In this document: one piece after another, positions 29,301 through 45,356 of the stretch | Numbering within the stretch: the first letter of the stretch is position 1 | How the letters are laid out: the number at the start of each line of letters is the position of its first letter | NCBI GenBank assembly: GCA_005879315.1 | Contig: VBLC01000076.1 | Location: 1-62,755 of the forward strand | Reading direction: 5' to 3' | Length of the DNA stretch: 62,755 bases | Source of the DNA: Deltaproteobacteria bacterium | Lineage (GTDB): Bacteria > Myxococcota > Myxococcia > Myxococcales > 40CM-4-68-19 | Notes under the pieces: model-generated | Databases searched by the model: none | What the model was told of the DNA's origin: nothing | Seen by the model: the letters and a program-made list of their open reading frames with translations, nothing else | Program-made: the position numbers and the translations under genes

Positions 29301-29447
29301 GGCGCTGACGTTGATGGTCGGATTGTCGGTGCGCGGCAGCGGCGCGACCGGCAGCTGAGTGAACCCGGCGCTTCCCGCCAGCACCACCGCGAGCGCGAGC
29401 AGCGTGGTCGCGACCGGCCGGCGGATGAAAGGCGCGGAGAAATTCAT
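26361..29447 (-). CDS. mdtC: RND multidrug efflux permease MdtC
   Basis: A 1028-residue inner-membrane RND pump subunit, collinear with E. coli MdtC: same N-terminus (FIRRPVATTLLALAVV, LPVAPLPRTDNPTINVSAGLPGASPETMASAVATPLERRFGRIAG). The proton-relay Asp pair is in TGFVVDDAIVVTEN, and IVKKNAIMMIDFA marks the later helices. MdtB and MdtC form a mixed trimer that exports bile salts, novobiocin and other drugs through TolC. It is the last gene of the operon; its ATG overlaps the mdtB stop by 4 nt. Confidence 0.94.
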   Translation of the reverse strand: MNFSAPFIRRPVATTLLALAVVLAGSAGFTQLPVAPLPRTDNPTINVSAGLPGASPETMASAVATPLERRFGRIAGISEITSSSTLGQTSLTLQFDLDRDVDSAARDVQAAMNAAGGDLPPGLPNRPNYRKVNPADAPILILSLTSKTLPLGQIFDVANTILAQKVSQVSGVGQVFIGGGQQPAVRVSVDPGALAGLGLSLEDVRTVLSRATLDSPKGSLSGAVQTRSIAANDQLFKAEGFKPLILAYRNGAPVRLQDVANVVDSVENERVAAWTDGRRAVLMIIRRQPGANIIDVIDRVKALLPSLSGAISPSVDISVVLDRSGTIRASVSDVELTLLISVGLVVLVVFLFLRSGRATAIPSVAVPLSLIGTFGAMYLCGYSLDNLSLMALTISTGFVVDDAIVVTENIARYIESGDPPMQAAFKGAKQIGFTIVSITVSLLAVFIPILLMGGMVGRLFREFAVTLSIAIAMSALVSLTLTPMMASRLLRPEKEIGHGRFSRALERAFNFLHGLYDRGLQWVLNHEFVMLIVTILTIAISVTLYIVIPKGLFPQQDTGQISGFSEAPQDISFPALRARQEAINAVVMAHPAVDHMMSFIGAGNTGTVFVQLKPLPQRKKSADQVINELRPQLARIPGIALYMQSNQDVRLGGRIGRTQYQYTLVDANLDELTQWSPKMLQKLRSVPELRDVNTDQQTAGLKLTVEVDRDTAARLGISPQSIDDTLYDAYGQRQVATVFTQLNQYRVVLEVKPEYQNHPDALGQLYLRSASGEAVPLSAIARVVPAATSLSVNHQGQFPAVTLSFNLAPGIALGQAVDAIHRAEHEIGLPASIRASFQGTAQAFQQSLASEPLLVMFALIAVYIVLGVLYESYVHPVTILSTLPSAGVGALLALLLVKMEFSIIALIGIILLIGIVKKNAIMMIDFAIEAEREQGLTPKEAIYQASLLRFRPILMTTFAALFGGVPLAIGHGTGAELRQPLGITIVGGLLISQLLTLFTTPVIYVTMDKLSRNKRRSELSAQPAGATL

Positions 29448-32400
29448 GTGGCAGGGACCGGGGCGGGCTTGCGCCGCAGCCAGGCGCCGAGGCGGCCCAT
29501 GTAGAGATAGATGACCGGCGTCGTATAGAGCGTGAGCACCTGCGAGATGAGCAGCCCGCCGACGATGCTGATCCCCAGCGGCTGGCGCAATTCGGAGCCG
29601 GTGCCGCTGCCGAAAGCGAGCGGGATGCCGCCGAGGAGCGCCGCCATGGTGGTCATCATGATCGGCCGGAAGCGCAACAGGCAGGCCTGGAAGATGGCCT
29701 CGCGAGGCGAGCGGCCCTGATCGCGTTCCGCCTCGAGCGCGAAGTCGATCATCATGATGGCATTCTTCTTGACGATGCCGATCAAGAGGATGATTCCGAT
29801 CAGGGCGATGATGCTGAAGGAATGGCGCGTGAGCATGAGGGCGAGCAGCGCGCCGACGCCGGCCGAAGGCAGCGTCGAGAGGATGGTGACCGGATGGATA
29901 TAGCTCTCATAGAGGACGCCGAGGACGATGTAGACGGTGAGCAGCGCCGCGAGAATGAGGATGGGCTCGCTCGCCAACGACTCGCTGAAGGCCTGCGCCG
30001 TGCCCGAGAAACCGGCGCGGACCCCGGGCGGCAGGCCCATTTCCGCTTCCACTTTGGAGATGGCGTCGACCGCCTCGCCCAGCGCCACTCCGGGAGCGAG
30101 ATTGAAGGAGAGCGTGACGGCCGGGAATTGTCCCTGATGATTGATGGAGAGCGGCGACTGCGCCTGCTCGAAATGGGCGAAGGCCGAGAGCGGCACCTGA
30201 TCTCCCGTCGATGATTTCAGATAGAGGCGCTTCAATGCCTCGGGGTTTTCCTGATCTTCGGGCCGCACTTCGAGGATCACGCGATACTGGTTCAATTGCG
30301 TGAAGATCGTCGACACCTGCCGCTGCCCGAAGGCGTCGTAGAGCGCGTCGTCGATCGACTGTGGCAGGATCCCCAGCCGGGCCGCAGTGTCGCGGTCGAT
30401 GTCGAGCTTCTCCTGCAGCCCTGCCGTCTGCTGGTCGCTGGCCACGTCGCGCAGCTGCGGCAGCTGCTGCAGCTTGTCCACGACCTTGGGCCCCCACTCG
30501 GCCAGCTCGCGCGGATCGGCGTCCTCCAGCGTGTATTGATACTGGGTGCGGCTGAGGCGGCTCTCGATCTGCAGATCCTGCACCGGCTGCAGGAAGATCT
30601 GGATCCCCTCCACCTGCTGCAGCTTCGGCTGCAGGCGCGCGATGATCTCCTGCGCGCTCTCGCTGCGCTGGTCGCGAGGCTGGAGCGCGATGGAGAGGCG
30701 CCCGCTGTTGCTCGTCTGGTTGGTTCCGTCGGCGCCGATGAACGAAGCGACGGTGGCGACCGCCGGATCCTGGAGCACGACGTCGGCGAGCGCGCGCTGG
30801 CGATCCATCATGCGCGCGAAGGAGGCGTCGGGCGCGCCTTCGGTGACGCCGATGAGGAGGCCGGTGTCTTGCTGGGGAAAGAATCCTTTGGGAATGACGA
30901 AGGCGAGCAGCAGCGTGAAGAGCAGCGTGGCCAGCGTCACCAGCAGCGTCGTGCGCTGGTGGTCGAGCACCCATTCCAGCCCGCGCTGGTAGATGCGCAC
31001 CATCCGTTCCCACATCCGCTCGGTCCAGCGCTGGAAGCGGCCCTCCTTCTCTTCGCCGTGGGGCTTGAGCATGTGGGCGCACATCATCGCGGTCAGCGTG
31101 AGAGAGAGGATGGCGGAGACGCCGATGGCGATGCTGAGCGTGACGGCGAACTCGCGGAAGAGCCGGCCGATGATCCCCCCCATGAAGAGCAGGGGAATCA
31201 AGACGGCCACCAGCGAGACCGTCAAGGAGACGATGGTGAATCCGATCTGCTTGGCGCCTTTCAACGCCGCCTCGAACGGCGGGTCGCCCTCCTCGATGAA
31301 GCGGGAGATGTTCTCGATCATCACGATGGCGTCGTCGACCACGAAGCCGGTGGAGATGGTGAGCGCCATCAACGACAGGTTGTTCAGGCTGTAGCCGCAC
31401 AGGTACATCAATCCGAAGGTTCCCAGGAGCGACAAGGGAACGGCGATGCCGGGGATGAGGGTGGCGCGCAGCGAGCGGAGAAAGACATAGATGACCGCCA
31501 CCACCAGGAAGATGGTCAGGAGCAGCGTGAACTGGACGTCGCGCACCGAGGCGCGCACCGTCTCGGTCCGGTCGGCGAGGATGTTCATGTCGATCCCTTG
31601 AGACAGCGTCGCCTTCAGCTGTGGCAAGAGGGCCTTCACCCGATCGGCCGTCTGGATGACGTTGGCCCCCGGCTGCCGCTGGACGTTGAGGATGATGGCG
31701 CGCTGCTGGCCGGCCCAGCCGGCGAGCTGCGCGTTCTCCACGCCGTCGATCACCTCGCTGACCTCGTCGAGGCGGACGGGCGAGCCGTTCTTGTAGGCGA
31801 TGACGAGCGGCCTGAAAGAGGCGGCCTTCCCCAGCTGGTCGTTGGTGGCCAGCATGAAATCCTGCCGCGGCCCATCGAGGTTGCCTTTGGGCTGATTGAC
31901 GTTGGCCTGCGCGAGGACGGCGCGCACGTCTTCCAGCGTCAGCCCTGTCCCGGCCAGAGCTTCGGGATCGACCTGCACGCGCACGGCCGGCTTCTGGCCG
32001 CCATTGATCGTCACCAGGCCCACGCCGAGAACCTGCGAGATCTTCTGCGCCAGGATGGAGTCGGCGGCGTCGTCCACCTGATCGAGCGGCAGCGTGTGCG
32101 AGCTGACGCTGAGGGTGAGGATGGGCGTGTCGGCGGGATTGCTCTTGCTGTAAGTGGGCGGCGCGGGAAGGGTGCGGGGCAAGAGGTTGGAGGCGGCGTT
32201 GATGGCCGCCTGCACGTCCTGCTCGGCAGCGTCGATGTTCCGCTCCAGCTCGAACTGCAGGGTGATCTGGGAGGTGCCGAAGCTCGAGACCGAGGTCATC
32301 TGCTGCAGCGCCGGCATCTGCCCGAACTGCCGCTCGAGCGGCGTGGTGACGGCCGAGGCCATCGTGTCCGGGCTCGCTCCGGGGAGCAGCGTCGAGACGA

Positions 32401-32536
32401 CGATGGTGGGGTAATCGACCTGCGGCAGCGCCGAGACCGGAAGCTGTCGATAGCCGGCGATGCCCGCGAGCAGCAGTCCTACGGTGAGCAGCGAAGTGGC
32501 GACCGGCCGCCGGATGAACGGCTCGGAGATGCTCAC
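29444..32536 (-). CDS. mdtB: RND multidrug efflux permease MdtB
   Basis: A 1030-residue RND pump subunit collinear with E. coli MdtB (LPVSALPQVDYPTIVVSTLLPGASPD, TTPLERQFGQMPALQQM, GVGLVTINGGQKPAVRV). The relay pair is in TGFVVDDAIVMIEN. It differs enough from the downstream MdtC to be the partner rather than a recent duplicate. It works as the heteromeric MdtB2C pump in the inner membrane. Overlaps of 4 nt link it to mdtA upstream and mdtC downstream. Confidence 0.94.
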   Translation of the reverse strand: MSISEPFIRRPVATSLLTVGLLLAGIAGYRQLPVSALPQVDYPTIVVSTLLPGASPDTMASAVTTPLERQFGQMPALQQMTSVSSFGTSQITLQFELERNIDAAEQDVQAAINAASNLLPRTLPAPPTYSKSNPADTPILTLSVSSHTLPLDQVDDAADSILAQKISQVLGVGLVTINGGQKPAVRVQVDPEALAGTGLTLEDVRAVLAQANVNQPKGNLDGPRQDFMLATNDQLGKAASFRPLVIAYKNGSPVRLDEVSEVIDGVENAQLAGWAGQQRAIILNVQRQPGANVIQTADRVKALLPQLKATLSQGIDMNILADRTETVRASVRDVQFTLLLTIFLVVAVIYVFLRSLRATLIPGIAVPLSLLGTFGLMYLCGYSLNNLSLMALTISTGFVVDDAIVMIENISRFIEEGDPPFEAALKGAKQIGFTIVSLTVSLVAVLIPLLFMGGIIGRLFREFAVTLSIAIGVSAILSLTLTAMMCAHMLKPHGEEKEGRFQRWTERMWERMVRIYQRGLEWVLDHQRTTLLVTLATLLFTLLLAFVIPKGFFPQQDTGLLIGVTEGAPDASFARMMDRQRALADVVLQDPAVATVASFIGADGTNQTSNSGRLSIALQPRDQRSESAQEIIARLQPKLQQVEGIQIFLQPVQDLQIESRLSRTQYQYTLEDADPRELAEWGPKVVDKLQQLPQLRDVASDQQTAGLQEKLDIDRDTAARLGILPQSIDDALYDAFGQRQVSTIFTQLNQYRVILEVRPEDQENPEALKRLYLKSSTGDQVPLSAFAHFEQAQSPLSINHQGQFPAVTLSFNLAPGVALGEAVDAISKVEAEMGLPPGVRAGFSGTAQAFSESLASEPILILAALLTVYIVLGVLYESYIHPVTILSTLPSAGVGALLALMLTRHSFSIIALIGIILLIGIVKKNAIMMIDFALEAERDQGRSPREAIFQACLLRFRPIMMTTMAALLGGIPLAFGSGTGSELRQPLGISIVGGLLISQVLTLYTTPVIYLYMGRLGAWLRRKPAPVPAT

Positions 32537-33732
32537 GGCCTCGGTCCCGCCGGAGCGCGGCCCATCTCGCGCGCCGGTTGCGCCGGGCCGCCCTGCGGTC
32601 GCGCCGCCACTTTTGCGCCGGGCCGCAGCTGGCTCTGGCCGTCGACGACGACCTGCTCGCCCTGCTGCAGCCCGCGCGCGACGATGGCGAGATCGCCCTG
32701 GCTCAGCTCGACCTCGATGGGGCGCGCCGAGACCGTCTGGTCGGGAGCGATGACGTAGGCAAACGTTCCCTCCGGCCCGCGCTGCGGCACGGTGGCCGGC
32801 ACGACCAGCGCTTCCCTGCGGGTGGTCAAGAGCAGGCGCGCCTTGACGAACTGGCTCGGCCAGAGCAGCCGCTGCGGATTGGGAAAGAACGCCTTCAGCC
32901 GCATGGTGGAAGTGGCGGCATTGATCTGGTTGTCGACCAGCGCCAGCTGCCCGGCGGAGAGTCTGGTGGCTCCGTCGCGGCTCCAGGCCTCGACTTGCAG
33001 CGGCCCTTTGGCGAGCTCGTTCATCACCCGCGGGAGATCGTCCTGCGGGAGGCTGAAGAGAACCGCGATTGGATCGAGCTGGGTGATGAGCACCAGCCCA
33101 TTCACGTCGGTAGCGCGGACGAGGTTTCCCGGATCGACCTGGCGCACGCCGGTGACGCCGTCGATGGGTGAGCGGATGCTGGCGTAGTCGAGGTTGAGGC
33201 GCGCCGAGTCGATCTGCGCGCGATCCAGCTGCACCGCGCCCTCCAGCTGGCCGACCAGCGAGGCCTGATCGTCGGCCTGCTGCTGGGCGATGAGCTTTCG
33301 CTGCGCCAGCCCCCGGTACCGTTCGAGATTGAGGCGCGCGCCCTTCAGCTGCGCCTCGTCGCGCGAGAGCGCGCCCTCCGCCTGGTGCAGCTGGTTGAGG
33401 AAGGGCCGCGGATCGATGCGCGCGATCAGCTCGCCTCTTTGCACCGCCTGCCCTTCGGTGAAGAGCACCACATCGAGGCGGCCGTCGACCTGCGAGCGCG
33501 CCGTCACCGTCTTGAAGGCGACCACGTTGCCCAGCCCGTCGAGATAGATGGGCACGTCGCGCTTCTGCACCTGCGCCGCCGTCACCGGCACGGGCCGCTG
33601 CGCCGCCTGCTGTGCGCTCGCCGCGGTCGCCGCCGCCTGCTGGGTGCTGCGCCGGTGGACGAAGAAGGCGATGCCGGCGATGAGGACCACCGCCGCCAGA
33701 AGGAGGATCAGCCGCCGATCGCGCATGCTCAC
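32533..33732 (-). CDS. mdtA: RND efflux periplasmic adaptor MdtA
   Basis: A 399-residue membrane-fusion protein. One N-terminal anchor helix (LILLLAAVVLIAGIAFFV) is followed by a Gln/Ala-rich stretch, the lipoyl-like halves around DGLGNVVAFKTVTARSQVDGRL and RSPIDGVTGVRQVDPGNLV, an alpha-helical hairpin (about 115-180), a beta-barrel domain and a Gly/Pro-rich tail. It bridges MdtBC to the TolC-like channel. Start ATG 33732 overlaps the tolC stop; the stop overlaps the mdtB start. Confidence 0.93.
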   Translation of the reverse strand: MSMRDRRLILLLAAVVLIAGIAFFVHRRSTQQAAATAASAQQAAQRPVPVTAAQVQKRDVPIYLDGLGNVVAFKTVTARSQVDGRLDVVLFTEGQAVQRGELIARIDPRPFLNQLHQAEGALSRDEAQLKGARLNLERYRGLAQRKLIAQQQADDQASLVGQLEGAVQLDRAQIDSARLNLDYASIRSPIDGVTGVRQVDPGNLVRATDVNGLVLITQLDPIAVLFSLPQDDLPRVMNELAKGPLQVEAWSRDGATRLSAGQLALVDNQINAATSTMRLKAFFPNPQRLLWPSQFVKARLLLTTRREALVVPATVPQRGPEGTFAYVIAPDQTVSARPIEVELSQGDLAIVARGLQQGEQVVVDGQSQLRPGAKVAARPQGGPAQPAREMGRAPAGPRP

Positions 33733-35018
33733 TCCCGCCCGAGCGCGTGCAAGAGCTGCGCGCGCGCCGTGGCCAGTCTGTCGTCCGCCTGCACCGCCTG
33801 GGCCGCGGCGCTGGTCAGCGCCACCTGCGCGTCGCCCAGCTCGATCACGCTGCCTACTCCCGTTTCGTACCGGCCTTCGGCGAGGCGAAGGCGCTCCCGC
33901 GCGTTGATCAGCGCCTCCTGGGCCGCGCCGACCGATTCCCTGGCGGCGCGCACCGCCAGCCGCGCTTGATCGAGATCGAGGCGGATCTGCTGCCTCAAGA
34001 TGTCGAGCTGCGCCACTGCCCCTGCCGCGTTCGCTTCCGCCTCGCGGACCTGCGCGCGGGTGAGGCCGCCCTGGAAGAGATTCCAGGAGAGCGTCAGGCC
34101 CGCGCTCGCGTTCCAGCCCAGCTGGCTGATGGAGGTGCCGCCCTGGGTGAAGCCGAGAGTCGCCGCCAGGGACGGGCCGTACTGTCCTTCGATCGACGAG
34201 GCGGTCAGCTGCTGGGCGCGCACCTGCTGCTCGAGCGAGGCCACTTCCGGCCGCGCCTTCAGCGCTTCCTCCAAGAGCGGCGGCAGCTCGGCCTCCTCGC
34301 CCTTGATGGGCGGGAGCGCCTCGTCGGCGATGTCGTAATCGACGGGTCCCTCGATGCCCATCGCCTGGTTCAACTGCGCCTTCGCGGTCAGGTAGGTGTT
34401 CTCGGCGTTGATCAGCGTCACCCGGGCGTTCGCGCTGTCGGTGCGGGCCTGCGCCAGATCGATGTCGGGCCGCGTGCCGGCGCCGACGAAGGCCTCGATC
34501 TGCTCCAGGTGCTTGTTGAAGTTGTCCAGCGAATCGCGCGCCACCTTCACCAGCGAGCGGCTGGCGCGGGCGGCGAAGTACGCGGAGCGGACGTTGAAGC
34601 CGACGAGCAGCGCGGTCGCCCGCTCGCTGCTCACGCTCGACTCTTCCTGAGCGCGGGCCGCGCGCCAGCGGTTGGGCGCCGCACCGAAGTCCCAGAGAAG
34701 CTGCGAGGCCGAGATGTTGCCGGAGAAAAAGTTGTAGAGGCTGAAGCTCGAGTTGGTGTCGGTGTTGAAAGTCCGTGGCGCCGATCCCGGCCGATTGATG
34801 AAGTTCGCGGTGGTGCGTTGATAGCTCGCCGTGGCGGTGAGCTGCGGCAAGAGCGCAGCGAAGGCCTCGCTCGAGCGCGCCCCGGCAGCGCCGGTTGCCG
34901 CGCGCGCCTGCCGGAGTTGTGGCTGCCGCTCGCGCGCCGTCCTCAGCGCCTCCTCGAGAGTGAGGACGCGCGGCCCGGCTGCCTGGCCGAGCAGGGCAAG
35001 GGCGAGAGCGAAGATCAT
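33729..35018 (-). CDS. TolC family outer-membrane efflux channel
   Basis: A 429-residue outer membrane factor. It has a short signal peptide (ending near GQAAG) and two internally repeated OEP domains with long helices (LTLEEALRTARERQPQLRQARAATG... and later AQLDILRQQIRLDLDQARLAVRAA). In the trimer these form a beta-barrel and periplasmic tunnel. It is the exit duct for the MdtABC pump encoded just downstream. The ATG at 35018 overlaps the marR stop by 4 nt. The leader is unusually short. Confidence 0.9.
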   Translation of the reverse strand: MIFALALALLGQAAGPRVLTLEEALRTARERQPQLRQARAATGAAGARSSEAFAALLPQLTATASYQRTTANFINRPGSAPRTFNTDTNSSFSLYNFFSGNISASQLLWDFGAAPNRWRAARAQEESSVSSERATALLVGFNVRSAYFAARASRSLVKVARDSLDNFNKHLEQIEAFVGAGTRPDIDLAQARTDSANARVTLINAENTYLTAKAQLNQAMGIEGPVDYDIADEALPPIKGEEAELPPLLEEALKARPEVASLEQQVRAQQLTASSIEGQYGPSLAATLGFTQGGTSISQLGWNASAGLTLSWNLFQGGLTRAQVREAEANAAGAVAQLDILRQQIRLDLDQARLAVRAARESVGAAQEALINARERLRLAEGRYETGVGSVIELGDAQVALTSAAAQAVQADDRLATARAQLLHALGRE

Positions 35019-35476
35019 CCCGTCACCCGATGCGCAGGGGCTTCTTCCGCGAAGGCTTCCAGATTGCCGATCAACTTGCGCAAGAGAGCGCGCAACATCT
35101 CCTGCTCGCGCTGCGACATCCCCTGCACCGAGGCGGCGCGCACCGCCGTGGCGATCGGTTCGATGCGCTCGACCAGCTTCGCTCCGGGGGCGGTGAGCGC
35201 GATGCGCAGGGCGCGCCGATCGTCCGGGTCGGGCTGGACGCGCAAGTAGCCGCGCTCCTCCAGGGCCACGGCGACCCGCGAGGCGGTCGGGGCATCGAGC
35301 CGCTGCCGCCTGGCGAGCTCGCCCAAGGTCGCGCCCGGCAGATCGCGGGCGGCGTAGAGGAACCAGAACTGTCCCGGTGTCAGCTGCAGATGGCGCGCAT
35401 GGCGGAGCACCGCCATCTTCAGCCCGCGGCGGGCGGCGGCGATGAGCAGTCCGAGCGGCTCCTGCGGAGGCGACAT
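35015..35476 (-). CDS. MarR family transcriptional regulator
   Basis: A 153-residue winged-helix regulator starting MSPPQEPLG. Features are the N-terminal helix, LTPGQFWFLYAARDLPGATLGELARRQRLDAPTASRVAVALEERGYL (the recognition HTH) and the wing RVQPDPDDRRALRIALT with the family-defining D-x-R-R. MarR proteins usually repress efflux genes and release on binding phenolic ligands. It is first in the tolC-mdtABC operon, so autoregulation of the pump is expected. TTG 35488 is an upstream alternative, but it would place the start inside the operator-like dyad. Confidence 0.93.
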   Translation of the reverse strand: MSPPQEPLGLLIAAARRGLKMAVLRHARHLQLTPGQFWFLYAARDLPGATLGELARRQRLDAPTASRVAVALEERGYLRVQPDPDDRRALRIALTAPGAKLVERIEPIATAVRAASVQGMSQREQEMLRALLRKLIGNLEAFAEEAPAHRVTG

Positions 35477-35488
35477 TTGCTGTGGCAA
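35477..35488 (-). promoter_or_regulatory. MarR-type operator candidate
   Basis: On the minus strand TTGC-CACA-GCAA sits immediately before the marR ATG. E. coli MarR binds TTGC-CTGG-GCAA, with the same half sites and the same 4-nt gap. A bound repressor here would cover the start region of the operon. The 82-nt space to the divergent ACT gene could let it touch both promoters. Confidence 0.5.
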
Positions 35489-36155: not shown

Positions 36156-37106
36156 GTGCTTCGCGCGCTCGCTTCATTCGCGCTCGTCCTTGCCTGCGGC
36201 TGCGGAAATCATTTCGTCGAGCCGCATCCGCCGCAGCTCGAGCGCGCGCAAGCGACTTACACGGCGGGCAGCGCGGGAGAGCCAACCTCCTATCTGGTCG
36301 TGCTCGATCTCTACCTCGAGCGCAGCGCCGGGTGCGCCGACCAGCACGCCTTCGCGCTGCAGACGATCCGCGCAGCGATGGGGCCCGAAGCGATCGAGAT
36401 CGCCGTCGAGGACGCCTCGCCGACCTGCGCGCAGCTCTCCACCCGCAGCATCGATCCTCTCGCGGTCGATACGGCCATCGTGGCGGCCCAGGCGGCGCAC
36501 GCCGCCGCGCACCTGCGGCCCATCCTCGTCTACGTCAACAACATCGACCTGCCCATCACCCATCCGCTGATCGATCAGCTCGCCGCCATCCGCTCGCGCT
36601 CGGTGGCGCGGGTCCAGCAGGCTCCTTTGTACTGGGCGCTGGCGGCGGCGAAGCCGGCTGGCGACCTGCGCAGCGACCGCATCGTCCCTTGGACCTTCAC
36701 GGGCGATGCGGCCCTCGGCGCGACCCTGCGCTCGCTGGCGTCGGCAGACCTTCCGCTGCAGAGCGAGACGGGCGACGTGGCGGGCCCCTTGCCGCTGCTC
36801 GGCGAGGACGCGCTCCATCGCGCGCTGCAGTTCAAGCTCTGCAGCGGGTCGGACTTCGTCGCGCCCCTTGGATTCGCCGGAGACGGCAGCGCGCAGCCCG
36901 TCGATCCGCAGAAGCCGCCCGCTTTCTCCGTCGCGCTGCCGCCGCGCTACGCCATCCCGCTCTCGGAATTCAAGCCCCGCGCGATCACGCTTCCCGTCGA
37001 GCTCTGCCTTCTCCATTGCGATCGGTTCTTCGGCTATCTGCCTGGAGATGACCCGGTCGTCTGGGACCAGGTGGCGGGCTGCCTCCTGCCGGACAGCCAG
37101 CCATGA
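36156..37106 (+). CDS. Lipoprotein, first gene of the MotAB/FliFG-like operon
   Basis: A 316-residue exported protein with leader VLRALASFALVLAC (lipobox-like, Cys near residue 14). The mature part starts with a Pro/Thr-rich linker and then a domain with a hydrophobic strand TSYLVVLDLYLERS, helices and a second strand HLRPILVYVNN, a layout like a Rossmann/vWA-type fold. Six or more cysteines suggest disulfides. I do not recognise a family. GTG 36156 was chosen because it begins the signal; the frame is open from 36057. Its stop overlaps the next start by 4 nt. The ninth gene of the operon has a broadly similar layout. Confidence 0.7.
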   Translation: MLRALASFALVLACGCGNHFVEPHPPQLERAQATYTAGSAGEPTSYLVVLDLYLERSAGCADQHAFALQTIRAAMGPEAIEIAVEDASPTCAQLSTRSIDPLAVDTAIVAAQAAHAAAHLRPILVYVNNIDLPITHPLIDQLAAIRSRSVARVQQAPLYWALAAAKPAGDLRSDRIVPWTFTGDAALGATLRSLASADLPLQSETGDVAGPLPLLGEDALHRALQFKLCSGSDFVAPLGFAGDGSAQPVDPQKPPAFSVALPPRYAIPLSEFKPRAITLPVELCLLHCDRFFGYLPGDDPVVWDQVAGCLLPDSQP

Positions 37107-37681
37107 TGGCCGCTCTCTTTCTCCTGCTCGCGGCCGGAGCGGCCACCGCCGAGCCGGTGCGCGTCGAGCGGCGCGTGCTGATCAAGGAGAAGCGCTGGTT
37201 CGTCTCGGGCGGCTTCGCCTGGCTGGAGCGCGGCGACTACTACCTCAATCCCGGATTCGCCCTCTCCGCCTCGTACTACCCGACCGAGGAGGGCGGTCCG
37301 GAAATCCGCGTGGCCGGTTTCGTCTCGCGGCTGAGCGCGGCCGGCGACGAGGTCTTCAAGCTCACGGGTCTGATGCCCGACTCGCACCGGCCCATCTCGC
37401 TCGTCACGGCGGGTTGGCGACAGTCGCTCAGCTACGGAAAGCTGGCCATCGGATCCTCGGTGCTGCATTTCGATCTGCAGGGAGCGCTGCACGGGGGCGC
37501 GCTCGTCACCGACCGCTCCGTGGCCCCGGCGCTCTCGGCGTCGGGCGGCGCGCTGATGCGCATCACGGCGCGGATCCATGCGCAGCTCGATCTCGGGCTG
37601 CTCGCCTCGTACGAGCGGCGCTCGCGCGCCTCGATCGCGGTCGGATTCCTCCCGCTGCTGTCGATCGGGGTGGCGCTGTGA
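37103..37681 (+). CDS. Outer-membrane beta-barrel protein candidate
   Basis: A 192-residue exported protein with a clean signal peptide (LFLLLAAGAATA). The mature chain is made of alternating hydrophobic/polar strands (RWFVSGGFAWLERGDYYLNPGFALSASYY, ISLVTAGWRQSLSYGKLAIG, IHAQLDLGLLASYERRSRASIAVGFLPLL) and ends in a hydrophobic strand, as small eight-stranded barrels do. It resembles myxobacterial outer-membrane beta-barrel proteins found in gliding and envelope complexes. It overlaps both neighbours by 4 nt. It could be the outer-membrane partner of the MotAB/FliFG-like motor, but this is inference from position. Confidence 0.7.
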   Translation: MMAALFLLLAAGAATAEPVRVERRVLIKEKRWFVSGGFAWLERGDYYLNPGFALSASYYPTEEGGPEIRVAGFVSRLSAAGDEVFKLTGLMPDSHRPISLVTAGWRQSLSYGKLAIGSSVLHFDLQGALHGGALVTDRSVAPALSASGGALMRITARIHAQLDLGLLASYERRSRASIAVGFLPLLSIGVAL

Positions 37682-39159
37682 TCGCGCTCCTGCTCGCGAC
37701 TGCCGCGCAGCTCTTCTGGAGCCGCGACCTGGGCGGCCTCCAGCGCCTGATTGCCGAGCAGTCCGCGGAGGCGGACGGCCTCTTCGGCGACCTGCTCCGG
37801 CTCGTCGACTGCGAGGCGCTGTCGCCCAGCGACGATCCCCTGCGGCGCCTGGTGCGCATCGAAGCGCTGCGCCGCGCGCGGCCGGCGAACAATCTCTGGC
37901 GCGACATCCTCCACCCCGGGTTCTTCCGCCGCCAGGTGACCAATCCTACCGGCAGCCTGGTCTGGCGCAACGATGGCGAGCCCTGGCCGGGCGAGACGCT
38001 GGTGGTCGCGCCGCCCCTCTCGCAGTGCGCCAAGGAGCCACTCCCCAAAGGCGACGAGGTCGCGCTGCTCGCAGGCCTTCGCCTCGACGATGCGGCGGCA
38101 CGTGCGCGCGTGGCCTATCAGCTCGCGCTCTTGCTCGTGCGCAAGCGCGCGCCCGCTCTGGACGCGGCGCGCTCCATCGATCCAGCGCCGCTGCGGGCCG
38201 AACTGCAGCCGTGGGCGCGCCTCTTGCGCCTCGAGGCCGGAGCCGATCCGCGCGAAGGCTACTTCGCTCTGGTCGATCAGTGGAGCGGCGCGCCGGACGA
38301 AGTGGTCATGCGCGCAGCGGCGCTGGCGGCAGAGCGGCATCAGTTTGACCAGGTCGCCCGGCTGACCGAGCGCGCCGCGGCGCCGAAGACTCCGGCGCAA
38401 CGCCATTTGATCTCGCTGCGCGCGGCGGCCCTCGCGGCGCTGGGCCGCAATGAAGAGGCGCTCGCCGTGCTCGAAAAAGCGCCGGAGCGGGAGCTGTCGC
38501 TGCGGCTCCTCTCGCGGCGTCCTTTCGACAAACGGTCGCGCGCGCTGCTCGCCGCCTTCCCCGGAATGCCCGCGTCCGATCTCGCCGAGCGCGCGCTGGC
38601 GGCAGGAAACGTGCGCACCGCCAGGGCCGCGGCCGAAGAGCTGCTCGAGGGCCCGGCCCACAAGCTCGCCCGCGGTCTGGCGCTGCAGGCGGAGATCGCC
38701 TTTGCCCAAGGCGAGCCGGCCGCCTTCGACGACGCCATCGCGCGGCTCTTCCCCGCCGAGCGCAAGCCGTTCTCGCACGCCGCCGAGCGAGAGGATCGCG
38801 ATCGCTCCGCCATCGAGCTGCTCGAGCTGCTCGCCGCGCGACAGGCGGCGCGGCCCGACCGAGCCTGGCAGCGGCTGCTCGAGGCGCGCGCCGCGCACGT
38901 TGCCGCCGAGGTGCACGTTCGCCACAAGCCGGAAGCGGAGCGCGTGCTCGTCGCCTTGCGCGAGCTGCGCGGAAAGCCCGGAACCGCGCTGGCGCTCGGC
39001 GCGATCGCAGTCGAGCCCCAGGCGCCGCTGCCGCCGGAGCCCCAGGTCGCCTTCGACTTTCCCGAGCCGTATTCGCTGCTCGCCATTCCCGCGCCCGATG
39101 GCTCCTTGCACGACTGGTTCCCGAACGAAGAGCGCCTGGCTGGAGGAGGTCTGCCGTGA
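37678..39159 (+). CDS. Periplasmic alpha-solenoid (TPR-like) protein, hypothetical
   Basis: A 493-residue protein with a short hydrophobic start (VIALLLATAAQLF). Most of the chain is Ala/Leu/Arg-rich paired helices like a TPR/solenoid (ALAAERHQFDQVARLTERAAA, ISLRAAALAALGRNEEALAVLEKAPE, LAERALAAGNVRTARAAAEELLEG). It ends with a Pro-rich segment and an FPEPYSLLAIPAPDGSLHDWF tail. Solenoids of this type are scaffolds in envelope machines. GTG 37678 overlaps the previous stop, and its own stop overlaps the next GTG (GTGA), with a GGAGGAGGT ribosome site there. No named family recognised. Confidence 0.75.
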   Translation: MIALLLATAAQLFWSRDLGGLQRLIAEQSAEADGLFGDLLRLVDCEALSPSDDPLRRLVRIEALRRARPANNLWRDILHPGFFRRQVTNPTGSLVWRNDGEPWPGETLVVAPPLSQCAKEPLPKGDEVALLAGLRLDDAAARARVAYQLALLLVRKRAPALDAARSIDPAPLRAELQPWARLLRLEAGADPREGYFALVDQWSGAPDEVVMRAAALAAERHQFDQVARLTERAAAPKTPAQRHLISLRAAALAALGRNEEALAVLEKAPERELSLRLLSRRPFDKRSRALLAAFPGMPASDLAERALAAGNVRTARAAAEELLEGPAHKLARGLALQAEIAFAQGEPAAFDDAIARLFPAERKPFSHAAEREDRDRSAIELLELLAARQAARPDRAWQRLLEARAAHVAAEVHVRHKPEAERVLVALRELRGKPGTALALGAIAVEPQAPLPPEPQVAFDFPEPYSLLAIPAPDGSLHDWFPNEERLAGGGLP

Positions 39160-40286
39160 TCCGCCTTCTCGTCCTTCTCTTCGCTGCCGCGCTCGCGGTG
39201 CGCGCCGAAGAAAAACCGCCTGAGCCCGCGCGGCCGGCGCCGGAAATTCCCGAAGCCGCCGTCGTCCACGCCCGCAAGAGACCGGTCGAGCGCCTCCGGG
39301 TGGTCGAAGGCAACCTGGTCACTTCGGGCGAAACCGTGAACGCCAGCGACGTGGTCGACGAGATGCTCGACGAGCTCGCCGCCGACGTGGCCAAGCTGGG
39401 CGGCCCGCGGGTGGGACCGCTCTTGCTCGAGCGCATCCAGGTCTCGGACAACATGAATCCCGAGTACGCCTCGATCCTCGAGGCGCGCCTCGCCTCCGCC
39501 ATCTACCGCGCCGCCAACATCGCGCTCATCGTCTGCCACGAGTGCTTCGCCCTCAAGAGCCGCCTCGAGAACGGCAGCTGGGTGGTGAGCCGCGGGATCA
39601 CCGGCCGCGACCAGCTGAAGGAGGTCGCCCGCAAGTACGGCGCGCAGACGATGCTGGCGGTCTCGCTCTCGCTCCAGGACCGTCCCAATTCCATGGCGAT
39701 GGACGTCGAGATGGTCCGCGCCGAGGACTCCTCCATCGCCTTCGCCGAGAACTACCGGCTGGACGCCGGCCGCGCTCTTCTCTATCGCGGCGCCGACACT
39801 GCGCAAGCGCGCGAAGCGCGGCTGCAACAGATCGAGGATCGCCTCAACCAGCGGCCGCATCTGCAGACGGCGGCGGAGCTGGGCTTCATGCGCGTCGACT
39901 CCGATCAGGGCGCCATCTGGGGCGGCACGGGCCGCTTCATCCTCACCGAGCCATTCGCCGATCGCTTCTCGGCGGGACTGTCGCTGGGCGGATTCCTCAA
40001 CACCACCACTCTGGCCGGCGGAATTCTCGGCGGGGTCTTCCAGGCCCGGATTGGCGACCCCGCTTTCGACGCACCCGAATGGTCGCTGGTGATCAATCCC
40101 GGCATGCTCATCACCGGCAACGCGGGCAATGCGATGCTCCTGCTCGGCGGGCTGCGGCTCCTCGGCGGCGTGCGCCTCGCGCTGCACGCCGACGTCGGCT
40201 ACCTCGCTTCCTTCCAGATCAACAACAAAGGCGCGACCTACGGCGGCCTGGTCACGGAACTGGGGGTCAGCTTCGTATGGCGTTGA
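39156..40286 (+). CDS. FlgO/CsgG-like domain plus C-terminal barrel, exported
   Basis: A 376-residue exported protein (leader LLVLLFAAALAVRA). The N-terminal half has the fold pattern of FlgO / TolB-N / CsgG-type domains: an ASILEARLASAIYRAAN helix, a sensing-type strand, then ITGRDQLKEVARKYGAQTMLAVSLSLQ and a strand-rich end. The C-terminal half from about 225 is strand-rich with aromatic ends (LVINPGMLITG, LALHADVGYLASF, LVTELGVSFVW), like an outer-membrane barrel closing in VW. Vibrio FlgO is an outer-membrane flagellar ring protein, so a ring or anchor role fits the MotAB context. This assignment is from pattern only. Confidence 0.65.
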   Translation: MIRLLVLLFAAALAVRAEEKPPEPARPAPEIPEAAVVHARKRPVERLRVVEGNLVTSGETVNASDVVDEMLDELAADVAKLGGPRVGPLLLERIQVSDNMNPEYASILEARLASAIYRAANIALIVCHECFALKSRLENGSWVVSRGITGRDQLKEVARKYGAQTMLAVSLSLQDRPNSMAMDVEMVRAEDSSIAFAENYRLDAGRALLYRGADTAQAREARLQQIEDRLNQRPHLQTAAELGFMRVDSDQGAIWGGTGRFILTEPFADRFSAGLSLGGFLNTTTLAGGILGGVFQARIGDPAFDAPEWSLVINPGMLITGNAGNAMLLLGGLRLLGGVRLALHADVGYLASFQINNKGATYGGLVTELGVSFVWR

Positions 40287-40921
40287 GACTCTCGTTGCTG
40301 CTCCTGATCTGCTCTTGCGCGAACACCGGGCCCAACGCGCTGCCCAAGCGACTGGTGGTGCCCGACGAAATGCGCCGCGCGCCAGCGCCGGCGGCGGGCA
40401 TTCCGCTGCGGACGCCGGTGACTCTCGGGACGGCCGCGACCCCAGTCTCCAAGGATCTGCGACCCGCCACGCCTACGCCCGCCACGCCCGCCTTCGAGTC
40501 GCGGCGCTATCTGGTGCGCCTCACCGAGCATGGCCGCACCTGGGAGCTGGAGCTGCCCGAGTCGCGCGGCGGCTATGAGCTGCGCATTCCCATCGAGCCG
40601 GCGCCGGGCGAGACACCCACCGCCGCCGACGCGGAGATGCTGGCGGGCGGCGCCTCACCGCACAAGGGATACCTCGCCAACCTGGCACGCATCGGCGAGA
40701 TGTACTCCGCGCACAAATACGAGATGGCGCTGATCGAGCTGGTCGATCTCGAGCCGTCCTATCCCAAGGACGGCCGCATCCAGGCGATGAAGGGTTCGCT
40801 CTACCAGAAGCTGGGCAAGGCAAAGCTGGCGCGAGAGGCGTGGCAGAAGGCGCTCGCGCTCGACCCGGCCGACACCGGCGTCGCGGAAGCGCTCCGCGAG
40901 CTTCGACAAACGGAGGAGTAG
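40277..40921 (+). CDS. TPR-containing lipoprotein
   Basis: A 214-residue lipoprotein with leader LSLLLLICSC (Cys near residue 14). After a Pro/Thr-rich linker there is a strand-rich part (RRYLVRLTEHGRTWELELPESRGGYELRIPI) and a C-terminal pair of TPR-like helices (YSAHKYEMALIELVDLEPSYPKDGRIQAMKGSLYQKLGKAKLAREAWQKALALDPAD). Similar TPR lipoproteins help assemble envelope complexes. Its start lies 10 nt inside the preceding gene, and its stop touches the motA start with no gap, so it is tightly coupled to the stator genes. Confidence 0.82.
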   Translation: MALRLSLLLLICSCANTGPNALPKRLVVPDEMRRAPAPAAGIPLRTPVTLGTAATPVSKDLRPATPTPATPAFESRRYLVRLTEHGRTWELELPESRGGYELRIPIEPAPGETPTAADAEMLAGGASPHKGYLANLARIGEMYSAHKYEMALIELVDLEPSYPKDGRIQAMKGSLYQKLGKAKLAREAWQKALALDPADTGVAEALRELRQTEE

Positions 40922-41698
40922 ATGCACGTCATCCTCGGCATCCTCGCGCTGGCCGCGACTCTGCTTGCCACCATCGCGCTCGAGCACACCCAGACGCATT
41001 TCACCGGCCTCCTCTACGGTCCCGCGCTGTTGCTCCTCCTTCTGGCGCCGCCTTGCGTGGCGCTCACCTCGCACGGCGTGGAGCAGCTGGTCGACACCGC
41101 GAAAGAGCTCTGGCGCGCGGTGCGCTTCTCGCCCCGCCGCTCACGGGCGCAACTCTACGACGAGCTGACCCGCTTCGCCGCCGAGTTCCGCCGCGGCCGC
41201 GCCGCCGAGGCGCTCGCAACCGTCGAGCGCGCCGACCACGCGCTCTTGCGCCAGCTCGGTCCGTTGGTGCTCAAACGATATGCGCCGGAGGAGATCGAGC
41301 GCACCGCGTCCACCGCCGGCTACTGCCTCGCTTCCTCGATGAAGCGGGCCGAGGACGTGCTCGCCTCGCTCGCGCGCGTGTCGCCAGCGATGGGGCTGGT
41401 GGGCACGACGCTCGGACTGATCATGCTCCTGCGCGAGCTGCAGAACTTCGAGCAGCTCGGGCCCTCGATGGCGCTGGCTCTTCTCTGCACCCTCTACGGC
41501 CTGGTGCTGGCGAACGCTCTCTATCAGCCGCTCTCGCGCCTGGTGCACGACCACGCGGTGATCCTCCAGGAGGAGGCGCGCCTGCTCACCCGCGCGCTCC
41601 TCCTCATCGCCGCGGAGAAGCCGCTCGCCGACGTCCGCGCGCTCTTCGATGCGCCTTCCGCCGAGGCTGCGCCCGAGCCGCGCCTCGCCCTGGGCTGA
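40922..41698 (+). CDS. MotA/TolQ/ExbB-type proton channel, MotA-like
   Basis: A 258-residue four-helix protein: TM1 about 4-20, TM2 28-48, a cytoplasmic domain (about 50-150), TM3 152-170 and TM4 182-204. TM3 SPAMGLVGTTLGLIMLL and TM4 MALALLCTLYGLVLANALYQPLS match MotA rather than TolQ/ExbB, including prolines near P155 and P203 at the ends of the channel helices. MotA with MotB forms an ion-driven stator that turns a rotor. The ATG directly follows the previous TAG, with a GGAGG ribosome site. Exact ion and rotor partner are not given by sequence; the FliFG-like protein is the obvious candidate. Confidence 0.88.
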   Translation: MHVILGILALAATLLATIALEHTQTHFTGLLYGPALLLLLLAPPCVALTSHGVEQLVDTAKELWRAVRFSPRRSRAQLYDELTRFAAEFRRGRAAEALATVERADHALLRQLGPLVLKRYAPEEIERTASTAGYCLASSMKRAEDVLASLARVSPAMGLVGTTLGLIMLLRELQNFEQLGPSMALALLCTLYGLVLANALYQPLSRLVHDHAVILQEEARLLTRALLLIAAEKPLADVRALFDAPSAEAAPEPRLALG

Positions 41699-41701
41699 CC
41701 G

Positions 41702-42316
41702 ATGGACGATCCGCTGCACGTCGAACACAAGCCCGACGAGCTGTGGCTGATCAGCTACGCCGACCTGCTCACGCTGCTGGTCGGATTCTTCGTGCTCATC
41801 ATCGCCTCGGTGCCGATGCGGCAGGCGCGGTTCGAGCGCATCGCCGCCTCGCTCTCCGGCACAAGGCAAGCGCCGCTGCAGTCGCTGCAGGAGAAGATCG
41901 AATCGTTGGTCGCGCGCTCGCCGGAGCTGAAGAACCGGGTGGTGGCGCGCGACGAGGGCGGCAGCCTGGGGATCGAGTTCAAGGACGCGCTCCTCTTCGA
42001 CTCCGGCTCGGCGCTGGTGCGCAGCGAGGCGCGGCCCGCCATCGCCGAGATCGCGCGCCTCTTGCGCGAGCTGCCGGCGCGGCCGGTGACCATCGAGGGG
42101 CACACCGACGAGGTGCCCATCCACACCACGCCCTTCCACAGCAACTGGGAGCTGTCCTCGCAGCGGGCGATCAACGTGCTCGCTGCTCTGGAGGCCGCGG
42201 GCGTCGAGCGGGCGCGGATGAGCTCGCGCGCCTTCGCCGACACGCGGCCCATCCTCTCGAGCGAAGGCGAAATCCAACGCACCGCGAGCCGGAGAGTGGT
42301 CATCCGGGTGGAGTAA
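41702..42316 (+). CDS. MotB-like stator protein with OmpA domain
   Basis: A 204-residue protein with a single N-terminal membrane helix whose DELWLISYADLLTLLVGFFVLI matches MotB, including the ion-carrying aspartate D21 in YAD. A helical linker leads to an OmpA/MotB peptidoglycan-binding domain with ALLFDSGSALVRSEARPAI, EGHTDEVPI and NWELSSQRA. All key features of a working MotB are visible: the channel Asp, the plug/linker and the anchor. It starts 3 nt after the MotA-like stop and ends 2 nt before the FliFG-like gene. Confidence 0.9.
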   Translation: MDDPLHVEHKPDELWLISYADLLTLLVGFFVLIIASVPMRQARFERIAASLSGTRQAPLQSLQEKIESLVARSPELKNRVVARDEGGSLGIEFKDALLFDSGSALVRSEARPAIAEIARLLRELPARPVTIEGHTDEVPIHTTPFHSNWELSSQRAINVLAALEAAGVERARMSSRAFADTRPILSSEGEIQRTASRRVVIRVE

Positions 42317-42318
42317 CC

Positions 42319-43941
42319 ATGCGCACCGCAGTCTTGATCTCGACTTTGCTCTGTGCCGCGACTGCCACCTCCAAGCTGCGGCAGGACGCGGAGGAGAAGG
42401 CGCGCGCCGAGGTGACCGATCTCTTCCGCGCTCTCTGCCCGGAGCAGTGCCTCTTGCTCTCCGTCGAGGCGCGCATCGGCGAGGAGGATCTGCCCGAGCC
42501 GGCCCCCGGATTCGACGCGCCCGGCGCGCGATCGCTGCCGGTCCTGCGCGGCGTGGCGGCGACCCTGCTTCTCGACGCGCGCCTGCCGGCCGAGTTCCGC
42601 GCGCGGATGAAGGCGCTGGTCGCGCAGCGGCTCAAGGCGCTGGGCGCCCCGCCGGCCGTCGCTGTCGAGGTGGTGCAGTTTCCGCCGCCGCGGGCGCAGG
42701 CCGAAGCGGCCCCGCCCCCGCAGCCGCCACAGCCGTCCGTCGCGTCCGCGACTCCGGTGGCGGCGAACAAGCCGGAGGAGAAGCTGATGGAGCACGCACC
42801 GCTGCTCGCGGTCGTGACGCTTCTGGGCACGGTGCTGCTGGTCCTGGGCGCGCTGCTCTTCCTCGCCGCGCGGCGCAATTCCGACGTGTCTTACGAAGTT
42901 GGCCCCGAGCCGCAGCCGCAGCCCGCCGCGTCGGCCAAGCCTGCCGAGGCGCCAGTTGCCGATCCATTCCCCATCCAGCGAACGCACAAGCTGGAGAAGG
43001 CGCTGCTCGAGCAGCGCGGGCTGCGCAATGCGGTGGTGCGCGAGGCGCTCGGCCGCGGCGAGCATGCGCTGGTGGCTCGCTGGATCCGCGAGCTGGGGGA
43101 ATTCCTCCTCGAGGACTTGCGCGGCGACGTTGCGCTCGCGCCCGCCTTGCAGCAAGTCGGGGCCGAGCTCGTGCGCGGCGCCGGGCCCGATCGCTCCGCG
43201 GGTCTACTGGAATTGGAGGGGCGGACGATCGCGGCGCGGCTCACGCGCGCGCCAGAAAACATCGACGAAGCCTTCGCCTTCCTCGAAGGCGTGCGGGCCG
43301 AGCCGTTCCTCGCCGCCTGCCGCGGGCTCTCGCCTGCGTCGCTGGAAGCGGCGCTGCGCTTCGCTCCGGCGCACCTGCGCGGCGCAGCCCTCGCCGAGCT
43401 GCCGGTGGCGCAGCGCCAGCAGATCGCGCTCAGCTGGGCGCGCCTTCCGGAGGTGAGCGCTGCGGTCGCGCTGACCGCGGCCGACGAGCTGCGCGCGCGG
43501 CTGGGCGAATCGGCTGGCGCCGGCCAGGCGGTGCGCGCGCTCGCCGACGTGCTCGACAGCCTGGGCCGCGCCGAGCAGGACGCGCTGGTCGAATCGATGC
43601 GGCGCGACGGCGGCGCGCGGGCTGCGGCCGGCCTCTGGGTGGAGTCGGCCTTGCTCTCGGCGAACCCCGACGCGCTCGCGGCGGCGCTCCTGGGAACACC
43701 GGCCAACCGGCTCGCCGACTATCTGCGCGGCGCCGACCCCGCCGTCCGCGATCACTTGCTCGCCGCCTGCCCTGTACGGTTGCGCAAGGAGCTGGAGGAG
43801 GAGCTTTCGCTCCGCTCCACCTCCACACGCGAGGAGTTCGCGGCGGCGCGGCGCGAGCTTCTCGCCCGGCTCGCCGAGGAGACGGCGCGGCGCGGCCCGG
43901 CGCTGACGCGGCCCGAGCGGCCCCGGCTGGTCGTGGAGTAA
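42319..43941 (+). CDS. FliF-like / FliG-like fusion protein (putative rotor)
   Basis: A 540-residue protein: signal peptide (1-18), a periplasmic segment with a ring-building strand-helix-strand motif (GVAATLLLD, AEFRARMKALVAQRLKALG, AVAVEVVQF; about 78-121) like FliF/SctJ, a Pro/Ala linker, one membrane helix (160-184) and a cytoplasmic region. Residues about 330-521 follow FliG middle and C-terminal domains in order: FLEGVRAEPFLAACRGLSPASLEAAL, QAVRALADVLDSLGRAEQDALVESM, LLGTPANRLADYLRGADPAVRDHLL, then a charged helix LRKELEEELSL and a final helix, as in FliG torque regions. This gives a single-protein ring plus C-ring adaptor next to MotAB. The FliG match is from memory and needs profile confirmation. 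Confidence 0.7.
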   Translation: MRTAVLISTLLCAATATSKLRQDAEEKARAEVTDLFRALCPEQCLLLSVEARIGEEDLPEPAPGFDAPGARSLPVLRGVAATLLLDARLPAEFRARMKALVAQRLKALGAPPAVAVEVVQFPPPRAQAEAAPPPQPPQPSVASATPVAANKPEEKLMEHAPLLAVVTLLGTVLLVLGALLFLAARRNSDVSYEVGPEPQPQPAASAKPAEAPVADPFPIQRTHKLEKALLEQRGLRNAVVREALGRGEHALVARWIRELGEFLLEDLRGDVALAPALQQVGAELVRGAGPDRSAGLLELEGRTIAARLTRAPENIDEAFAFLEGVRAEPFLAACRGLSPASLEAALRFAPAHLRGAALAELPVAQRQQIALSWARLPEVSAAVALTAADELRARLGESAGAGQAVRALADVLDSLGRAEQDALVESMRRDGGARAAAGLWVESALLSANPDALAAALLGTPANRLADYLRGADPAVRDHLLAACPVRLRKELEEELSLRSTSTREEFAAARRELLARLAEETARRGPALTRPERPRLVVE

Positions 43942-43944
43942 GCC

Positions 43945-44883
43945 GTGCGCGCGTTCGCTCCAGTCGCGGTTCTCCTCTGCTTCAGCTGCGTGATCGTGAT
44001 GAATGAGGAGACGTCGAGCCGCGACACCGGCCTGCCCGACGCGGGCACCGACGGCGGGCACGGAGGCGGAGGGGGAGGATCGGGCGGCGACCTCGATGGC
44101 TCGATCTACTGGGGGGACGGCGGCCACGACCCCCCGCATGGATTCCCCGGCAGCGGGCAGGAGGGCGATCCCGGCACGGCGGTGCTGCTTTTCTTCCGCA
44201 TCGATCGCGGCACCGCCGACCTGGCCGCCGCGGAAGAGACGATGGCCAAGCAGCTGATCGCGGCGCTGGAATCGGCGCGGCTGGTGGTGAGCTCGGTGAC
44301 GGCGATCGACCTCTACGCCGGCGGGAGCGTCCTCTGGCGGAGCATCATCAACACCCAGCCGTCCGTCTCGCTGGCCGACGTACTGCGCGCGCGCGCCGCG
44401 CAGATCGATACGGCGCCGAGCGCCTGCACGACGCTGGGCCCGGTCGACTTCGGCCGCAGCCCAGGCCTCCTCTCGCGGGCGGTGCTGGTCGCGATCGTCG
44501 AGCATGGGCCGCGGCCGCAGTCGGCCTCGTGCGACACGCTCGCCGGCGCAGCGGTGGCCGATCCCACCACCTGGCTGCGCGTCACGCCTTATCCGATCCC
44601 GCGCGCGCAGATGCGCTATCTGTTCATCTCCACCTCCGAGACGTTGCCCGCAGACCAGATGCAGTCGGCATGTCTGGCCACGGCCGGCTTCCCGCCCTTC
44701 GCGCTCGATGCGCTCGCGCCCTCGCCGCAGCCGTTCTTCGACGCGCTCGCGCCGCGCTTCAACGCCGGCCTGCCCAACCTCGCCACCCGGATCGATCTCT
44801 GCGAGGCGCTCGGGAGCGGATGGCAGACGCGCGCGAACGAGCTCGCCAAAGGCTGGTCGGCGATCTTGCAGCTGCAGCCATGA
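43945..44883 (+). CDS. Lipoprotein of the MotAB/FliFG-like operon
   Basis: A 312-residue lipoprotein-like protein. The leader AVLLCFSC gives a cysteine near residue 15, followed by a Gly/Asp-rich spacer with a poly-Gly run. The domain starts with strand GTAVLLFFRIDRGTAD, contains helices and a second strand region (RAVLVAIVEHG, MRYLFISTSE) and holds several paired cysteines (SACTTLG, SASCDTL, SACLATA). Its layout echoes the first gene of the operon, and both may be divergent copies of a vWA-like fold. GTG 43945 starts 3 nt after the FliFG-like stop; ATGA overlap links it to the last gene. No named family recognised. Confidence 0.68.
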   Translation: MRAFAPVAVLLCFSCVIVMNEETSSRDTGLPDAGTDGGHGGGGGGSGGDLDGSIYWGDGGHDPPHGFPGSGQEGDPGTAVLLFFRIDRGTADLAAAEETMAKQLIAALESARLVVSSVTAIDLYAGGSVLWRSIINTQPSVSLADVLRARAAQIDTAPSACTTLGPVDFGRSPGLLSRAVLVAIVEHGPRPQSASCDTLAGAAVADPTTWLRVTPYPIPRAQMRYLFISTSETLPADQMQSACLATAGFPPFALDALAPSPQPFFDALAPRFNAGLPNLATRIDLCEALGSGWQTRANELAKGWSAILQLQP

Positions 44884-45356
44884 AGCGGCCGCGGCGCAGA
44901 GTGATGCGGCGCGCGCGGCGGCGGCGGCGCTCCCGGATCGGTTGGTTGTTCGCCGCGCTGGCTGTCTGTTGCGCGCTCTGGTTCTGGCAGCGGCCCGCGC
45001 CGCCTTCTCCGCCGGCCGATCGGCCTCGCTCTCCGCCACGCGCGGCCGCGCTTCCGCCGCCGCGACGCCTCGCGCACCCGATCCCCACCGCGCCGCGCGA
45101 TCTGCTGCTCGCCGCGCTTCGCTCTCGCGCCGTCGAGCTGCGCGATTGCCCGCAAGCCGCCGATGGGCCGCACCAGATTGCCACGCGCCTCGACCTGAGC
45201 CGCGCCGGCTCGGTGCGTGCGGTTGCCTTCGACAGCTCCGAGCCGCTGCCGCGCGATCTCGCCGATTGCGTGCGGAGCCGGATGCTGGCCTGGCGGCTCG
45301 ACGAAGTTCCGCTGCGCTCCGATCTCCAAGCGCTGCTCACGCTCGAGATGCGTTGA
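44880..45356 (+). CDS. Small inner-membrane protein, TonB/AgmX-type C-terminus
   Basis: A 158-residue protein with a very basic N-terminus (KRPRRRVMRRARRRRRSR), one membrane helix (IGWLFAALAVCCALWFW), a Pro-rich stretch and a C-terminal domain (about 75-158). That domain has ELRDCPQAADGPHQIATRLDLSRAGSVRAVAFDS and LADCVRSRMLAWRLDEV, a strand-rich pattern with two cysteines like the AgmX/PglI C-terminus and other TonB-like domains. It may link motor motion to the outer membrane. The ATG overlaps the preceding stop (ATGA). It is the last gene of the operon. Confidence 0.7.
   Translation: MKRPRRRVMRRARRRRRSRIGWLFAALAVCCALWFWQRPAPPSPPADRPRSPPRAAALPPPRRLAHPIPTAPRDLLLAALRSRAVELRDCPQAADGPHQIATRLDLSRAGSVRAVAFDSSEPLPRDLADCVRSRMLAWRLDEVPLRSDLQALLTLEMR

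Follow-up and report, generated by a model that had tools for sequence, protein, structure and literature searches.

Our data point to a non-flagellar rotary envelope motor, driven by ions and encoded by ten co-directional genes (g1-g10) at positions 36156-45356 of the forward strand of the window, the whole stretch of 62,755 nucleotides analysed here. We consider this reading probable, at roughly 0.6. The genome, that of a soil bacterium, is assembled in 125 contigs (4.43 Mb, 97.6% complete), the window being contig 94, and the spacings between successive genes (-4, -4, -4, -10, 0, 3, 2, 3 and -4 nt, negative values being overlaps) agree with the tight packing described in the original prediction. 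The idea that one locus joins stator, rotor and envelope parts stands, with a flagellar-type stator, a FliG rotor and outer-membrane and TonB-like parts all present, while the suggested output in gliding, adhesion or glycan handling is drawn by analogy.

Stator and rotor genes

The stator genes are g6 (40922..41698, +, 258 aa, MotA/PomA-type) and g7 (41702..42316, +, 204 aa, MotB-type). Homology shows the pair to be a flagellar-type stator, which is predicted to be able to bind peptidoglycan. The g6 protein matches PF01618 at 8e-17 in Pfam, and its best NCBIfam models are those of flagellar PomA (2.2e-18) and MotA, ahead of TolQ (1.3e-5) and ExbB (4e-4). Likewise, its profile finds MotA (8gqy, 6.8e-23) and PomA (7e-22) in the PDB before ExbB (2.4e-5). 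Arg90, Pro155, Thr162, Thr190 and Pro203 are invariant in ten of ten sequences, and Thr162 and Thr190 correspond to PomA positions associated with Na+ motors. In g7, the MotB plug (5.7e-11) and the OmpA peptidoglycan-binding domain (2.2e-16) both exceed their Pfam cut-offs, NCBIfam returns MotD/MotB models down to 1.9e-40, and the channel residue Asp21 is invariant (10/10). The MotA-like channel and the MotB-like stator with channel Asp and OmpA domain had thus been called correctly.

In the MotA tree, 33 channels of the ExbB/TolQ side are separated (100/100) from the operon form (type A), a related form (type B, see below) and flagellar MotA; other MotA/ExbB-family channels of these genomes fall on the ExbB/TolQ side. 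Within the flagellar side, type A lies outside a group of flagellar and type B sequences (94/95). A survey from 2025 describes the MotAB-type stators (FIT) as a single flagellar group (PMC12505986). By NCBIfam, profile search against the PDB and the tree, g6 is not a TolQ/ExbB-type channel subunit, and by Pfam and NCBIfam g7 is MotB-type and not a TolR-type, AglQ/AglS-like subunit with a channel. An assignment of the pair to TolQR, raised beforehand as an alternative outcome, was rejected on the flagellar models and the MotA tree.

The rotor protein g8 (42319..43941, +, 540 aa) has a signal peptide, a periplasmic domain probably of ring-building type (about 20-120), a TM helix (160-187) and a FliG-like cytoplasmic part (about 219-525). 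Homology shows it to carry a FliG torque domain, which follows the TM helix and a periplasmic domain with a probable ring-building fold. A missing FliG match had been named as a point against the predicted FliF/FliG-like fusion; instead, FliG_C exceeds the curated Pfam cut-off (7.8e-8, 33.0 bits vs 23.3) and is present in 15 of the 19 g8 rows. Membership of the FliG family also holds by a profile of ten g8 sequences, whose best PDB matches are FliG (3usw, 3usy, 3hjl; profile 304-532), by hhalign against flagellar FliG (203 columns, E 1.2e-8) and by predicted fold. The AlphaFold2 model (pLDDT 84) comprises a helix-strand-strand-helix-strand periplasmic domain, the TM helix and a FliG part composed of helices. 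Its 13 best Foldseek matches are all FliG chains, some spanning about 310 columns, so that FliG N, M and C domains are apparently all represented. Rank 17, near matches to OsmC, is the FliF MS ring chain 8z5v_A (prob 1.00, E 0.08), and in hhalign the N-domain of type A has no significant sequence match to FliF (probability 3-7%). The FliF half of the fusion is therefore no more than likely in type A, since its support comes from Foldseek and the modelled fold and not from sequence.

The flagellar stator-rotor interface pairs R90 with D288-D289 and E98 with R281 (PMC12505986). In the hhalign alignment, which lays g8 'YLRGADPAVRDHLLAACPVRLRKELEEEL' on flagellar FliG 'ALKGAEQPLREKFLRNMSQRAADILRDDL', Glu494/Glu495 fall on Asp288/Asp289 of E. 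coli FliG and Arg487 on Arg281. The acidic pair is kept: the position of Glu495 is acidic in all C-terminal rows, and Glu494 is invariant in family f1, which includes the window's genome, and in the Archangium family (f4). Arg281 is kept in part, its position being Ser in most Archangium-family rows, and the positions of Lys264 and Arg297 are unconserved; in f1, the MotA residue Glu98 has a shifted position.

In the FliG tree, flagellar FliG forms one clade (99/98) and type A with the distant forms another (100/99), with type B between them. As the branches are long and the tree is unrooted, we make no claim as to which lineage came first. We regard it as unlikely that the operon is the motor half of a flagellum without the export half, having branched before the flagellar clade and reflecting an early, filament-free use of MotAB-FliG.

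Profile searches bore out the predicted lack of flagellar genes at the locus and detected no FlhA, FliF or FliM/FliN in the genome. FlhA (PF00771) was detected in none of the eight f1 genomes with the operon, one of them 100% complete, with flagellated controls positive. FliF (PF01514) was found in none of eight f1 genomes and is present in G009 and G031, and FliM/FliN (PF01052) was absent from the seven f1 genomes tested. FliG_C exceeds its cut-off in the window's own genome solely in the operon. Pfam and NCBIfam revealed no rod, hook or filament genes within the operon, and no flagellar export genes lie nearby, so that neither of the outcomes named in advance as refuting the prediction was seen. 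One f1 genus (genus label g4) has a flagellar-type FliG and lacks the operon. Archangium-family genomes contain FlhA-family genes, which probably belong to the known Myxo type III systems, reported without FliG and MotAB (PMC3459982). It is just as doubtful that the motor half encoded here is the counterpart of such a non-flagellar type III system.

Envelope genes, conservation and related forms

The genes g1 (36156..37106, +, 316 aa, GTG start) and g9 (43945..44883, +, 312 aa) had been described as exported lipoproteins. They are candidates for this role, g9 more clearly in the relatives than in the window, and neither has a family match in Pfam or NCBIfam. The g1 protein has invariant cysteines and a homolog in every long f1/f4 locus (28-40% identical); g9, with a conserved TxE and cysteines, is kept in place in all long loci. 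Both predicted outer-membrane barrels found support. By profile, g2 (37103..37681, +, 192 aa) appears to belong to the myxobacterial barrel family TIGR04565 (OMP_myx_plus), with a score of 2e-7 in the window, below the cut-off, and matches in nine of nine relatives (best 2.8e-12). For g4 (39156..40286, +, 376 aa), AlphaFold2 (pLDDT 76) predicts an LpoB/GNA1162-like periplasmic domain and an eight-stranded OmpA-type barrel, in line with Foldseek matches to LpoB (3.7e-5) and NspA/OmpA/OprF (6e-5).

The solenoid call for the exported helical-repeat protein g3 (37678..39159, +, 493 aa) draws on weak TPR matches (0.03) in Pfam; homologs 32-38% identical occupy the same place in the loci. The TPR lipoprotein candidate g5 (40277..40921, +, 214 aa) fits its earlier description, with TPR_2 (1.8e-4) and TPR_8 (2.2e-4) in Pfam and a lipobox-like ICSC. 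As had been proposed, g10 (44880..45356, +, 158 aa) is a basic protein (pI 11.8) with a single TM helix, which lies between a basic N-terminus and a proline-rich linker; its AgmX/PglI-type (TonB-like) C-terminus (NF033768) is weak in the window (0.008) and is matched in eight of twelve relatives (best 4.5e-6). TonB-like ends have also been described for GltG/GltJ (PMC9389320). No member of g4 or g10 falls into a Pfam family, and six further operon genes match no flagellar family in Pfam or NCBIfam. Together, the g4 barrel, the g2 family and the g10 end support an outer-membrane output, although no particular one.

Homologous loci were taken from a contig scan (seven loci, one of them from a named isolate) and a wider genome profile search. 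The g8 gene turns up in the Archangium family as well as in seven more f1 genomes, and all sufficiently long homologous loci of f1, other genera of that family included, and of f4 contain all ten genes in the same order every time, whereas the flanking genes differ. Because the order is constant inside and the flanks change outside, the ten-gene block is the exact unit, and its recurrence in f1 and f4 is not a matter of chance. No conserved neighbours hinting at an output were seen around these loci. In the window, two RND-type pumps, an adaptor, an outer-membrane factor and, alongside, a MarR-like regulator at 26361-35488 resemble an ordinary efflux operon.

More distant Myxococcota (L066, L062+L063, L064+L065, L179) have the rotated order g4-g5-MotA-MotB-g8-g9-g10-g1-g2, and some of them also have g3; the loci L062-L065 are divided between contigs, which hides their full order. 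The suggested synteny check thus returned the ten-gene order in f1 and the Archangium family and a rotated one elsewhere. The g4 and g8 profiles share matches in 17 of 195 genomes. Beyond these, g4 matches G111, which has the cluster, and, weakly, G184, and g8 matches G163, a type B locus.

Type B clusters are simpler and read FliF/FliG fusion-TPR-MotA-MotB-MotB (L137, L139, L140, L141, L067, and L138 as a contig fragment). The cluster at L137:7933-12321 adjoins a uvrC-like gene, and no barrel was found in it. Its fusion matches FliG_C at 4e-21 and YscJ_FliF_C at 8e-4, below the cut-off, and the type B fusion aligns with FliF RBM3 in hhalign (E 1e-7). Type B displays the fusion clearly and, at the sequence level, ties the periplasmic domain-TM-FliG fusion weakly to FliF.

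A third form, TPR-MotA-MotB-fusion-g1-like-g2-like-g3-like-g10-like, is found at L180:4438-13054 (Archangium lansinium, G118) and L181:2-8429 (G115); not every gene is present in both, and the envelope genes were assigned by position and look, not by significant search. As this form occurs in both genomes, each holds two such systems. The long fusion in L180/L181 has weak MgtE_N/FliG_M matches, and its neighbours resemble g1, g2, g3, g5 or g10.

Other FliG-like proteins were also seen. Weak FliG_C matches in proteins of about 500-770 aa (L143-L149, L155), common in the Archangium family, were rejected as relatives of g8, being a different protein. A FliG_C-like ORF of 551 aa (G072:C1:7840206-7840418) lies near FliMN_C (7834357) and FlhA-family (7821888) type III genes. 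It resembles the Archangium-family proteins just named, although the literature describes Myxo type III systems as lacking FliG. At L142:8821-9402, a protein of 194 aa with one TM helix and FliG_C (3.3e-11) is encoded in the 1.8 Mb genome G178.

Proposed machine and alternative explanations

In the machine that we propose, g8 would form a ring, turned by MotA through the conserved Arg90 and the g8 acidic pair Glu494/Glu495. The ring would work without FliM/FliN, and hence the usual CheY directional switch would be missing. Torque may cross the periplasm through the g8 N-domain, the TonB-like arm of g10, g3 and g5, and may reach an outer-membrane assembly of g4, g2 and the lipoproteins g1 and g9. 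As its output, the machine most likely moves or remodels a surface component, gliding being one possibility; the operon has no obvious output structure or adhesin gene.

A dedicated gliding motor, whose rotor drives surface adhesion complexes, overlaps with the rotary envelope motor as a possible output, and we entertain it tentatively. The operon shares kinds of parts with Agl-Glt (TPR proteins, OmpA-like barrels, the TonB-like GltG; PMC3169522), and since no f1 genome tested has GltJ over the curated cut-off, there is room for another motor in f1. Against this, the operon has no adhesin, and GltJ over the cut-off is already present in four Archangium-family genomes, as well as in one f6 genome. 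Given the missing GltJ in f1 and a MotA off the ExbB/TolQ side, the link to gliding is an analogy of parts.

Rather unlikely is a TonB/Tol-like energiser, in which MotA/MotB act via g10 to pull or open the outer-membrane barrels, with g8 as a non-rotating scaffold. Its tasks could be transport, lipid or polymer export, or envelope tethering. The TM helix, proline-rich linker and AgmX/PglI-type C-terminus of g10 would suit such a role, as would the two barrels and lipoproteins and the LpoB-type domain of g4. However, the plug-bearing stator is of the MotAB and not of the ExbBD/TolQR type, the FliG torque domain keeps its conserved acidic pair across members, and type B, which has neither barrels nor g10, retains both fusion and stator.

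Flagellar stators report mechanical load, and the genes following the operon in the window, from 45560, encode a PAS histidine kinase and a response regulator. A surface or load sensor, with a stator that reports load rather than doing net work, is nevertheless improbable, as the flanking genes vary from locus to locus. The flagellar homology of the stator and rotor domains might point to the remains of a flagellar motor in decay, a reading rejected as most improbable: all ten genes are intact and keep their order across families, the channel and interface residues are invariant, and six other genes have no flagellar family match.

Comparison with known systems

To our knowledge, MotAB acting on FliG is known solely from flagella. 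Searches of the open literature found no description of such a system, and the intactness of the set in distant relatives suggests an apparently undescribed rotary envelope machine. If this is true, the torque module is portable and kept in bacteria without detectable flagellar genes, and nature offers a small motor that combines FliF-like and FliG parts in a single chain and has no FliM/FliN. The ways in which evolution assembled or reused the flagellar motor could then also be tested directly. The motor is amenable to testing, since the isolate Archangium lansinium has the operon.

Like the bacterial flagellar motor, the system has a stator of the same type with plug, channel Asp and OmpA domain, a FliG fold whose torque helix carries the acidic pair, and a membrane protein whose periplasmic domain is probably of the ring-building type. 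Unlike in the flagellar motor, a single chain comprises both FliF-like and FliG parts and has a single predicted ring domain, FliM/FliN, FlhA and FliF are undetected in f1, and six envelope genes lack a flagellar match. Agl-Glt/Nfs of Myxococcus likewise combines an ion channel, a TonB-like protein, TPR proteins, small outer-membrane barrels and lipoproteins. However, AglQ/AglS are ExbD/TolR-type (PMC3169522) whereas g7 is MotB-type, the MotA tree places g6 on the flagellar side, and the paper on the Glt machine makes no mention of FliG (PMC3169522). With ExbBD-TonB and TolQR-TolA the operon shares a distant MotA/ExbB superfamily channel and a TonB-like protein (g10), but it has a MotA-type channel, a MotB with plug and OmpA domain and a FliG-type partner. 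The Myxo non-flagellar type III secretion system (PMC3459982) is another case of flagellum-related parts in myxobacteria; it represents the export half, whereas the operon represents the motor half, in f1 without FlhA. The locus lacks a tested defining feature of the flagellum, of Agl-Glt and of TolQR/ExbBD, and its torque core is still homologous to that of the flagellum.
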